Under the pieces are notes generated by a model that worked only from the letters and a program-made list of their open reading frames with translations, was not told where the DNA came from and made no database searches. A stretch of 60,927 bases of DNA from Methanoregulaceae archaeon. GTDB taxonomy: Archaea > Halobacteriota > Methanomicrobia > Methanomicrobiales > Methanospirillaceae. Positions 22,055 to 24,397 of this stretch are shown piece after piece (the first letter of the stretch is position 1; each line of letters opens with the position of its first letter). The position numbers were made by a program, and so were the translations under genes. The stretch lies in assembly GCA_021371995.1 (NCBI GenBank), contig JAJFVA010000041.1, positions 1 to 60,927 on the forward strand, given 5' to 3'.

Positions 22055-22132
22055 TGAATGATTACTATACGATCAAAGGCTCATTTTCATATTCGTCCTG
22101 TAGAAAAAAAATGAGATGTACCGGGAATCCTG

Positions 22133-22456
22133 TTACTCCTTCGCTCTGCCCTTCTCCTGCCCCTGGAGGAGGTGAAGCCTCAAAATTCCGTTACATGAGT
22201 TGCAGATATAATATTCCTGTGTCCAGCAGGTGGTGCAGGCCCATCTTCCGCACAGGGTACATTGTTTCAGCTCGGTGGAAAGGAAGGTACTGTTGCAGAG
22301 GTCGCAATGATACCGTGAAAAGCTGGAGGCATCTTTCTCAGGGGGTTCCCCCTGTTTTCTCATGACGGTAACATCGTTCCGGACGCGTGAGAAAAGGTCG
22401 GGGTCTTTTTTTGACCCCCTGGTATCACTTTTTCCCGGCTTGTTTTTCCAGAGCAT
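22133..22456 (-). CDS. Small protein with an eight-cysteine cross-brace-like zinc finger
   Basis: A 107-residue protein that I do not recognise as a named family. It has four CxxC pairs, CDLC, CTLC, CTTC and CNSC, spaced C-x2-C-x11-C-x2-C-x4-C-x2-C-x7-C-x2-C. That pattern binds two zincs in an interleaved fashion in FYVE- and RING-like fingers. The N-terminal 45 residues are basic and probably disordered, as is the tail. The start at 22456 overlaps the preceding gene by 32 nt; an ATG at 22363 would give a shorter protein that keeps the finger. Last gene of the six-gene operon. Confidence 0.65.
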   Translation of the reverse strand: MLWKNKPGKSDTRGSKKDPDLFSRVRNDVTVMRKQGEPPEKDASSFSRYHCDLCNSTFLSTELKQCTLCGRWACTTCWTQEYYICNSCNGILRLHLLQGQEKGRAKE

Positions 22457-22766
22457 CCAGCCGATCCTCCATCCCCTTCAGGCTTTCCTCCATCGATTCG
22501 GAAAAATCCTTCAGCGATGCCACCTTTGCTTCATTCGTCCCAAGGATCTGGTCCTTGGACTGCCTGAATGACTGGAGCTTTGTCCGGCTGACAAGCGACC
22601 ATTCCTCGATCATCAGCTCAAACCTGCGGTCGAGGTACTCGTCCACCCTGCTCTCCATAGGCCGGGCGAGCGATACATCCCCCTTCGCCCCCCTCCAGTA
22701 GTAGTAGATCACGAACAGGAGTAAGGCGACGATAATGACAATCAGGGCAGCCTCGAGGGGAGTCAT
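22425..22766 (-). CDS. Membrane-anchored coiled-coil protein with the YLDRR motif
   Basis: A 113-residue protein. One membrane helix lies at about residues 5-24, then comes a 36-residue block starting MESRV with core YLDRRFELMIEEWSL, then a coiled coil with heptad-like leucines to the end (MEDRLDALEKQ). The block aligns without gaps to the same block in the next two upstream genes, so the three are paralogues. No known domain is recognised. The start overlaps the previous stop by four bases. Confidence 0.7.
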   Translation of the reverse strand: MTPLEAALIVIIVALLLFVIYYYWRGAKGDVSLARPMESRVDEYLDRRFELMIEEWSLVSRTKLQSFRQSKDQILGTNEAKVASLKDFSESMEESLKGMEDRLDALEKQAGKK

Positions 22767-22987
22767 CGCTTTGCCTCCCTCAGCCGGGAGAGACGCTCTT
22801 CGAGATTATCGAGCTTTATCCCGGCACTGGTCTCGAACGACTCGATCTTCTTTGTCGTCTCCTCGATCCTACCAAGCCTGGTCTCGAAATCGCCGAGATC
22901 ATTCTGGGTTGCGAGGTCCCAGTCCTGGATCAGGTTCTTCATCCTCCGGTCCAGGTAGGCATTCATGTAGCTGTCCATGCCGACCAT
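22763..22987 (-). CDS. Short soluble coiled-coil protein with the YLDRR motif
   Basis: A 74-residue protein made almost only of the shared block (MDSYM, then YLDRRMKNLIQDWDL) and a coiled coil (LDNLEERLSRLREAKR). It has no membrane segment. It is the minimal member of the three paralogues. Its ATG shares one base with the TAA stop of the upstream gene, and its stop overlaps the next start by four bases. This tight coupling argues for a fixed stoichiometry or a common complex. Function unknown. Confidence 0.7.
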   Translation of the reverse strand: MVGMDSYMNAYLDRRMKNLIQDWDLATQNDLGDFETRLGRIEETTKKIESFETSAGIKLDNLEERLSRLREAKR

Positions 22988-23301
22988 TACCTGACCTCCA
23001 GCTCGCGGATCCCCGCTTCAAGAGCGGCCGCCCGCTTATCGATCTCATCCCTGCCCCTCTCGAGATTCCGTATTTCGGTCGTCACCATGTCCAGCCTGTC
23101 ATCGAGATCATCAAGATTGTGGATGGTGATGAGCCCCCACTCGCTGATGATCGCGGACATATGGGCGTCGAAATACCGGTCGAGGCTCTTATCCATGGTG
23201 GGAAGTTTTGCGTCAATGGTTCCGGGAATCGCCATCAGGGATTCCTTGAATGAGGATTTCTTTGCAGTCTCTGCAGGTGCGTTCTCAAACATCATGGTCA
23301 C
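22987..23301 (-). CDS. Soluble coiled-coil protein with a variant of the YLDRR motif
   Basis: A 104-residue protein. After an N-terminal linker of about 35 residues, the shared block reads MDKSLDRYFDAHMSAIISEW, followed by a helical coiled-coil tail (IDKRAAALEAGIRELEVR). No membrane helix. It is the most divergent of the three paralogues, with DAH in place of DRR. An internal ATG at 23295 is a possible alternative start. It overlaps its upstream neighbour by four bases. Confidence 0.68.
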   Translation of the reverse strand: MTMMFENAPAETAKKSSFKESLMAIPGTIDAKLPTMDKSLDRYFDAHMSAIISEWGLITIHNLDDLDDRLDMVTTEIRNLERGRDEIDKRAAALEAGIRELEVR

Positions 23302-23714
23302 CCAATTTTCTTCTCCTCATCTTTGATCTTCTCGACCATCCGGTCAAGCTTTGTGATGGTCACCTTGTTCTCGAGCCGCTCGATCCTTTTATCCACCGCA
23401 CTGTGCTTTGCAAAGATATCGGTGGTTAAGGCAACATTCTCCTCGTCGAGAGTCCGTATCTCCGCCATCTGTTCGGGGGAGACGCGGAAGAACGGGGTCC
23501 CCCGCTGTGCCATCTCGGCCTTCATCAGGTTGAGCTTCTCCTTCTCGAGATCGATCTCGGCAAGCCTCGGGGTGTTCCTCCACAGCCGGATCTCCTTGAT
23601 CATGAAGTACACGATGATGAGGATGATGACGAGAAGGATAACCCAGAAGACCGACTGGAACCATGCCCAGTAGGGAGAAGTTGAGGTAACTACAATTTCC
23701 GTTTCATTTGCCAC
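23298..23714 (-). CDS. Membrane-anchored coiled-coil protein
   Basis: A 138-residue protein with a short N-terminal segment, one strong membrane helix at about residues 18-42, then a long charged helix ending in a coiled coil (KRIERLENKVTITKLDRM). It lacks the YLDRR block of the three genes that follow. Topology suggests a short external N-terminus and a cytoplasmic coiled coil able to recruit the soluble coiled-coil partners. Function unknown. It lies 19 nt after the first gene of the operon. Confidence 0.68.
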   Translation of the reverse strand: MANETEIVVTSTSPYWAWFQSVFWVILLVIILIIVYFMIKEIRLWRNTPRLAEIDLEKEKLNLMKAEMAQRGTPFFRVSPEQMAEIRTLDEENVALTTDIFAKHSAVDKRIERLENKVTITKLDRMVEKIKDEEKKIG

Positions 23715-23733
23715 AGGTCATTTCCCCCGAAAA

Positions 23734-24225
23734 TTATAGTTCCTTGCCGCCCTTTTTCGGGGTGACCTTTCCTGCTACGTCCTTTGCACCCTTCTCAACG
23801 GTTTTCCCTGCTTTGGTTGCCCCTTCCTTCACGGTCCCGCCGGCCTTTGTTGCACCTTCTTTGACGGCGCCACCGGCCTTGACCGCACCCTCCTTGACGG
23901 CCCCGCCGGCTTTTGTGGCTCCTTTGGTGATCTTCTCCATCCAGGTGACCTTTCGTATCACGGAGATGGTATCGCCCTCGGCAACACCCAGCGATGCCAT
24001 ATCTTCAGGTGAGAGCATGATGACCGACTTGTCTACCATCTTGTCGCCATACCCGGTGACTGCGACCGTCTTTGTCTTCTGTTCCCAGACTGTCGGATAC
24101 TGGGCGAGGAGCAGTGCCTCCCCTTCTTTCGCGCCGATCATTGGCAGGACTGTCTCATGGACCCGGGCCCGTCCATGACTCGGAAACGTCCGTACCTTTA
24201 CCTTTAACGTAACTGATCCTTCCAT
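23734..24225 (-). CDS. Double-psi-barrel-like protein with 11-residue amphipathic repeats
   Basis: First gene of the operon, about 163 residues. The N-terminal 95 residues look like a double-psi beta barrel. The two half-motifs are GRARVHETVLPMIGAKEGEA and LSPEDMASLGVAEGDTISV, the layout seen in the N-domains of VAT/Cdc48 and in FwdD-type molybdopterin-dinucleotide domains. It then carries about five 11-residue repeats of the form GATKAGGAVKE, as in LEA proteins and synuclein, and a basic tail. The ATG at 24225 fits a TTAATA element near 24251; an in-frame ATG at 24243 adds six residues. The fold call is by eye. Confidence 0.65.
   Translation of the reverse strand: MEGSVTLKVKVRTFPSHGRARVHETVLPMIGAKEGEALLLAQYPTVWEQKTKTVAVTGYGDKMVDKSVIMLSPEDMASLGVAEGDTISVIRKVTWMEKITKGATKAGGAVKEGAVKAGGAVKEGATKAGGTVKEGATKAGKTVEKGAKDVAGKVTPKKGGKEL
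23764..23925 (-). repeat. Tandem 33-bp repeats encoding 11-residue amphipathic units
   Basis: About five in-frame units inside the preceding gene encode GATKAGGAVKE, GAVKAGGAVKE, GATKAGGTVKE, GATKAGKTVEK and a degenerate last unit. Neighbouring units differ mainly at third positions, which suggests purifying selection on the protein and not very recent slippage. Confidence 0.75.
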
Positions 24226-24397
24226 AGCAGTCACAACTAGCATCTCATACTATTAATGCTTTATTCCGTCTACCGCCGGGAAACCTGTACATCTCTGGAA
24301 AGGGTATATAACTGGTAATCAAAAAGGAGAGAAATTGTATTATTGGGGCTTTGATACGGATTTCGATTCTGGGAGAGCCCTCATAATTCTATAGAGT

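Follow-up and report, generated by a model that had tools for sequence, protein, structure and literature searches.

What do six small genes do that are inherited as one block in 16 or more methanogen genera, among them Methanoregula, Methanospirillum and Methanogenium, although four of their products (B–E) fall outside any described family? The locus lies in a 60,927-nucleotide stretch of a Methanoregulaceae genome of 1.85 Mb (contig JAJFVA010000041.1; hereafter the window). A first-pass annotation, made from the sequence alone, had listed the genes and suggested a membrane-tethered scaffold that recruits soluble coiled coils. We approached the question through the genes, their products, their neighbours and their inheritance.

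Layout of the operon

The six genes, here named A to F in the order of transcription, are all present as minus-strand open reading frames within 22133–24225, at the positions assigned to them before (Table 1). Their close packing was likewise borne out on measurement: A and B are separated by 19 nt, B and C lie 2 nt apart if C starts at its ATG and overlap by 4 nt if it starts at its GTG, and the remaining junctions are overlaps of 1 nt (C/D), 4 nt (D/E) and 32 nt (E/F). Where an estimate was possible, dN/dS of A–F relative to four members of the same genus is 0.04–0.24, indicating purifying selection on all six genes and hence real proteins. Chance open reading frames are ruled out by these ratios together with the conserved gene order.

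The putative promoter element upstream of A is the only match in the window at two or fewer mismatches (0.05 expected), and it is recognisable at the same place 5′ of A in five genus relatives. The A–F messenger RNA would carry a short leader or be leaderless. Together with the candidate terminator downstream of F, the TATA-like element is consistent with one transcription unit.

Table 1. Genes and putative transcription signals of the operon (positions in the window)
Feature	Position	Strand	Description
Promoter (putative)	24251..24265	-	TATA-like AATAAAGCATTAATA, 25 nt upstream of the A start codon
Gene A	23734–24225	-	ATG at 24225, start common to orthologues; 163 aa
Gene B	23298–23714	-	GTG start at 23714
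Gene C	22987–23295 (or GTG 23301)	-	soluble; head LDRYFDAHMSAIISEWGL and heptad-like tail
Gene D	22763–22987	-	soluble; head YMNAYLDRRMKNLIQDWDL
Gene E	22425–22766	-	TM helix residues 2–20, head RPMESRVDEYLDRRFELMIEEWSL, helical tail
Gene F	22133–22456	-	eight-Cys binuclear-type zinc finger, then long C-terminal helix
Terminator (candidate)	22104..22111	-	T8 run just past the F stop; from sequence only

Anchored and soluble helical proteins B to E

Protein B has one N-terminal transmembrane helix (about residues 21–39; KD19 maximum 3.14) with a flank charge of -2 on its N side and +2 on its C side, followed by a charged domain of about 95 residues that is probably helical and, given the predicted topology, cytoplasmic. 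The transmembrane helix of E (KD19 2.74) also has a positive C-side flank, and from these flanks we infer an N-out/C-in topology for both proteins. Profile comparison with hhalign confirmed that C, D and E are paralogues, of which E is the membrane-anchored one: the probabilities are 98.4% for C–D, 98.4% for D–E and 97.1% for C–E, centred on a DxYLDRR…EWxL head. The head columns of E are invariant in 21 relatives. B is not a paralogue of these three, as its profile probability of 46.7% stems from a short helical match only.

All four proteins had been described as coiled coils. A tail period of 3.46 residues is clearly heptad-like in C (p = 0.0085) and marginal in D (p = 0.06), and heptad periodicity was not detectable in B and E. 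Since heptads are clear only in the tail of C, the label should be used with care, and for B and E it has weak support. None of the four proteins matches a family above cut-off in Pfam or NCBIfam, and searches with the B, C and E profiles found no specific relative in the PDB; their matches to haemagglutinin and to designed coils reflect generic helix similarity.

A Cdc48-N-type barrel with an amphipathic tail

Residues 1–92 of A constitute a double-psi β-barrel of the Cdc48/VCP-N type. The AlphaFold2 model is confident for residues 1–90 (blocks of pLDDT 87–97) and falls below 50 in the tail. The best structures retrieved by Foldseek are VCP-like double-psi barrels and p97/Cdc48 N-domains, with 7dg9 at the top (E = 4e-7, TMt 0.85). 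Model and structure search thus confirm the double-psi barrel noticed at first sight, and the 'Sm' label given alongside it does not apply. The CDC48_N profile (PF02359) is matched by 46/46 A proteins, the window copy scoring 29.4 bits, below the curated cut-off of 35.1. A shares its fold with the N-domains of Cdc48, VCP and VAT, its closest structure being the Aeropyrum VCP-like double-psi barrel (TMt about 0.85), but it differs from these proteins in being a stand-alone barrel fused to amphipathic repeats and sometimes to a TrkA_C domain. Neither AAA+ ATPase domains nor the second subdomain of the Cdc48 N-domain are present.

The tail, at residues 95–150 approximately, is built of 11-residue amphipathic repeats (EKITKGATKAG/GAVKEGAVKAG/GAVKEGATKAG/GTVKEGATKAG). 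Its hydrophobic period in the window copy is 3.64, a signal matched in strength by 0 of 2000 shuffled sequences, and a period of about 3.64 is significant in all seven A sequences tested (the window copy and six diverse orthologues); the repeats reported earlier were thereby verified. Profiles of Apolipoprotein, ApoLp-III, Perilipin and Synuclein, all of them lipid-surface families, match members of A with a best E value of 2.8e-6. The Apolipoprotein profile is matched weakly by 24 of the 46 proteins, the best score among the individually listed ones being 23.9 bits against a cut-off of 90, and repetitive K/A/G/E helices are prone to matches of this kind. The tail resembles the helices of apolipoproteins, perilipins and synuclein in its 3.64-residue period, its K/E/A/V composition and its profile matches. 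It differs from them in that the matches are weak and below the curated cut-off, and in being joined to a barrel within an archaeal protein; in our view, the likeness is convergent rather than homologous. Alternatively, the tail could act as a protectant of the LEA type or simply as a linker.

A FYVE-like zinc finger

The eight cysteines of F are arranged as C51-x2-C54-x11-C66-x2-C69-x4-C74-x2-C77-x7-C85-x2-C88. Across 49 sequences seven of the eight are invariant and C74 is at least 90% conserved, which confirms the eight-cysteine finger already discerned in the sequence. F matches Prok-RING_2 of Pfam (PF14445) over the whole model (1–56 of 56; E = 1.1e-24) at 86.8 bits, far above the gathering threshold of 22.4, and the family is matched by 49/49 members of F. 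In a sample of the phylum, all strong matches (>80 bits) fall within the Methanomicrobiales. Weak matches of 21–32 bits occur outside the order in frames of 58–91 residues (family f8; G308, G312, G477 and others), which are probably separate small zinc fingers.

Placement of the proteins in unrelated known families, which the first-pass annotation had named as a ground for refutation, was only half borne out by the profile searches: B–E match no family, whereas F belongs to a Pfam family and the domains of A are recognisable. The membership of F, and the TrkA_C domain that A carries in other lineages, had been missed.

The name Prok-RING_2 implies an E3 function for which F offers no support. 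FYVE and PHD fingers are set apart from RING and U-box fingers by their second zinc site (PMC4999995), and the C4-x4-C5 spacing of F does not fit RING (C3-x(1–3)-H/C4-x(2–3)-C5) but is of the FYVE/PHD type. FYVE profiles match 37/49 and FYVE_2 profiles 33/49 members of F, weakly and below cut-off, and the 25 most frequent matches listed for the 49 members include no classical RING family. The AlphaFold2 model of F has a mean pLDDT of 86. Foldseek returned weak matches only (E of 0.4 or worse), mostly to FYVE domains and led by the FYVE-type fingers of RUFY1, HRS, CARP2, endofin and melanophilin. The cysteine spacing and these weak profile and fold matches point to a FYVE-type finger rather than a RING E3.

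With FYVE and FYVE_2 proteins that work with coiled coils, such as HRS, EEA1 and melanophilin, F has in common the C3-x2-C4-G-x3-C5-x2-C6 pattern, a helical flank and the company of helical membrane proteins. It is distinguished from them by its weak scores, by its location on a protein separate from the coils and by the absence of a phosphoinositide motif: in place of the lipid-binding (R/K)(R/K)HHCR, F has LKQCTLCGRW. TFIIE-alpha was rejected as a relative (E = 2.5e-4), only part of the finger being aligned. Small Ras-like GTPases, also considered as possible partners for a finger of the FYVE_2 type, are present in 9/11 genomes, with and without the operon, and are therefore uninformative about a partnership with F.

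The combination of a protein named Prok-RING_2 with a barrel closest to VCP/Cdc48 N-domains could indicate a module for protein modification and extraction at the membrane, in which F would act like a RING E3 and A as a Cdc48-like adaptor that passes substrates from a B/E platform to the Cdc48 ATPase or the proteasome. Full-length Cdc48-type ATPases are available in 14/14 genomes (about two each). We nevertheless hold this reading, the main rival, to be unlikely and less supported than a membrane scaffold. Spacing and weak profile and fold matches link F to FYVE/PHD-type rather than classical RING fingers, and A has neither an AAA module nor the second N-domain half of Cdc48. Genes for E1, E2, Ubl or JAMM proteins do not recur next to the operon, and an E2 (PF00179) was not found in 14 operon-bearing genomes, in a search run without a positive control.

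Neighbouring genes

Flanking genes differ between genera and are common only within a genus; in the window a Fae-HUMPS gene lies upstream, and genes for a metallo-β-lactamase and GlyRS lie downstream. A conserved wider neighbourhood was not observed: across genera only DUF308/HdeD-type genes recur, and clustered sensor kinases occupy no fixed position. These DUF308/HdeD-type membrane genes (PF03729) lie no more than a few kb from the operon at 11 loci in seven genera, and at seven loci of four genera they follow it directly, on the same strand and within 430 nt. Chance would yield about one locus, as estimated from 228 domain matches among 25 genomes, or roughly four genes of this type in each, and on this estimate the association looks real. 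It is not seen at the window's own locus. The downstream cases are L037, L043, L044, L050, L051, L066 and L071; the nearby ones are L040, L042, L056 and L061.

DUF308-type membrane genes near the operon in seven genera would be compatible with a ligand-responsive membrane regulator, in which a transporter or channel is controlled, through stalks made of B–E, by a TrkA_C (RCK_C, PF02080) domain of A that responds to a small molecule such as a cyclic dinucleotide or a cation. The domain does occur at the C terminus of A in Methanospirillum as well as several further genera, with scores as high as 46 bits (cut-off 27). However, only 9/46 A proteins match it, the Pfam search found none in the window's A, and among the neighbours there is no transporter with a consistent link to the operon, so that we rate such a regulator as quite unlikely. 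Judged by sequence, the domain suggests a ligand switch confined to those lineages. The loci noted, from Methanospirillum and two other genera, are L041, L044, L055, L057–L059, L062, L063 and L066.

DUF308/HdeD proteins are linked to stress in bacteria, and low-complexity K/A/G/E 11-mers like those of the A tail are found in LEA proteins. Both features would suit a LEA- or apolipoprotein-like stress protectant, with the tail merely shielding membranes and the other proteins serving only to localise A. Such a function is a very unlikely explanation: it would not call for four conserved helical proteins together with a zinc finger that is strictly conserved, and the invariant columns of A are all situated in the barrel, none of them in the tail.

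Conservation and inheritance

The order A-B-C-D-E-F on one strand is preserved in 38/39 whole-genome loci, and the remaining locus is cut by a contig end. A collection of 84,980 species yielded 61 loci, all from Methanomicrobiales (Methanoregula, Methanolinea, Methanospirillum, Methanogenium and relatives) or from Euryarchaeota bins of the same kind, and none beyond these was found. All six genes in order are present in 52 of them; five others are truncated where the contig stops, and four consist of A–E without F. Gene order, proposed earlier as a check, is thus kept across 16 genera in three families.

Among 199 genomes of the Methanomicrobiales, Prok-RING_2 scores above the Pfam cut-off in 70 and the E profile matches 69, each of which also has F; in the sole genome with F and no E above cut-off (G191), the F match is partial and lies at the end of a contig. 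The A and B profiles match operon-bearing genomes only, and A–E were never found apart on intact contigs. As the operon is absent from many Methanomicrobiales, its role must be dispensable in some of them. The absence of F from four copies likewise means that not every copy needs this gene. The downstream genes of the four (L087, L088 and L089 in the window's genus, L127 in another) differ from those of full copies. For three of them the same genome has another copy with F, and in the fourth genome the second copy ends at a contig end where F would not be visible. All four stem from metagenome-assembled genomes, in which strains may be mixed.

A tree of the concatenated operon rejects monophyly of the GTDB families f1 (p-AU 0.0013) and f2 (p-AU 0.0037), and the operon has therefore probably moved between families as one block, the alternative being that the model errs on long branches. 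Methanogenium-type operons of f2 nest with genus g14 of f1, a placement suggestive of whole-operon transfer between the two families. A viral origin was considered and rejected, as 2.9 million viral contigs contain no relative of E and the operon proteins have no meaningful PHROG match. Anti-phage defence was also dismissed: no PADLOC family is matched, and the transmembrane region of B resembles ZorB weakly (E = 0.0037).

The claim that the six genes encode one co-inherited complex is well supported by the fixed order, the joint occurrence of E, F and B without dispersed copies, their inheritance or transfer as one block, and the interaction-like head shared by C, D and E. That small genes travel together without forming a complex, as the copies missing F might suggest, is very unlikely given an order that is invariant over three families while the flanks change and the failure to find A–E apart on intact contigs.

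A proposed membrane scaffold

We propose, as the most economical reading, that the six proteins form a single hetero-oligomeric scaffold at the cytoplasmic side of the membrane, a member of no known family, and give this reading a probability of about 0.5. The recurrent DUF308/HdeD neighbours also speak for it. One N-terminal transmembrane helix each would anchor B and E, whose helical portions would lie in the cytoplasm. As soluble paralogues of the cytoplasmic part of E, C and D would co-assemble with it through the DxYLDRR…EWxL head and the helical tails. A may bind the lipid surface reversibly by means of its 11-residue repeats, in the manner of apolipoproteins, perilipins and synuclein, and present its Cdc48-N-type barrel as a docking module, to which TrkA_C would add a ligand switch in some lineages. 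F would be a FYVE-like treble-clef adaptor, peripheral on the assembled scaffold. The scaffold would probably serve to organise a membrane patch or keep it stable, possibly when the envelope is under stress. Gene order, selection, paralogy, folds and co-inheritance are established by the analysis, whereas topology, assembly, lipid binding and role are predictions. The membrane-tethered scaffold suggested by the first-pass annotation is partly supported, being compatible with the anatomy of two single-span proteins, two soluble paralogues and the lipid-surface-type amphipathic tail of A.

In its presumed way of working, with a peripheral amphipathic-helix protein and helical assemblies at the cytoplasmic membrane, this scaffold resembles bacterial ones of the PspA/Vipp1, DivIVA and flotillin types, to which its proteins have no sequence relation beyond chance-level matches. 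The literature search found no paper describing the operon, although 2011 work on prokaryotic RING-like domains may mention the neighbourhood, and no system with a matching composition was found.

A more specific version remains tentative and, to us, rather doubtful: a membrane-organising machine particular to the Methanomicrobiales and without counterpart elsewhere, in which an assembly of C, D and E anchored by E and B is combined with a stand-alone Cdc48-type barrel that senses the lipid surface (and, in some lineages, a ligand) and with the FYVE-like finger. If true, it would be an archaeal analogue, made from unrelated helical parts, of the eukaryotic membrane platforms that combine FYVE domains with coiled coils. 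The scaffold itself, if it exists, would offer a compact and testable archaeal system for membrane organisation. For annotation, our results suggest that the name 'Prok-RING_2' should not be taken to mean an E3 ligase. The operon unites modules best known from eukaryotic membrane biology, namely a Cdc48-N barrel, a FYVE-like finger and apolipoprotein-like helices, in a set of six genes free of ATPase, GTPase and ubiquitin genes.
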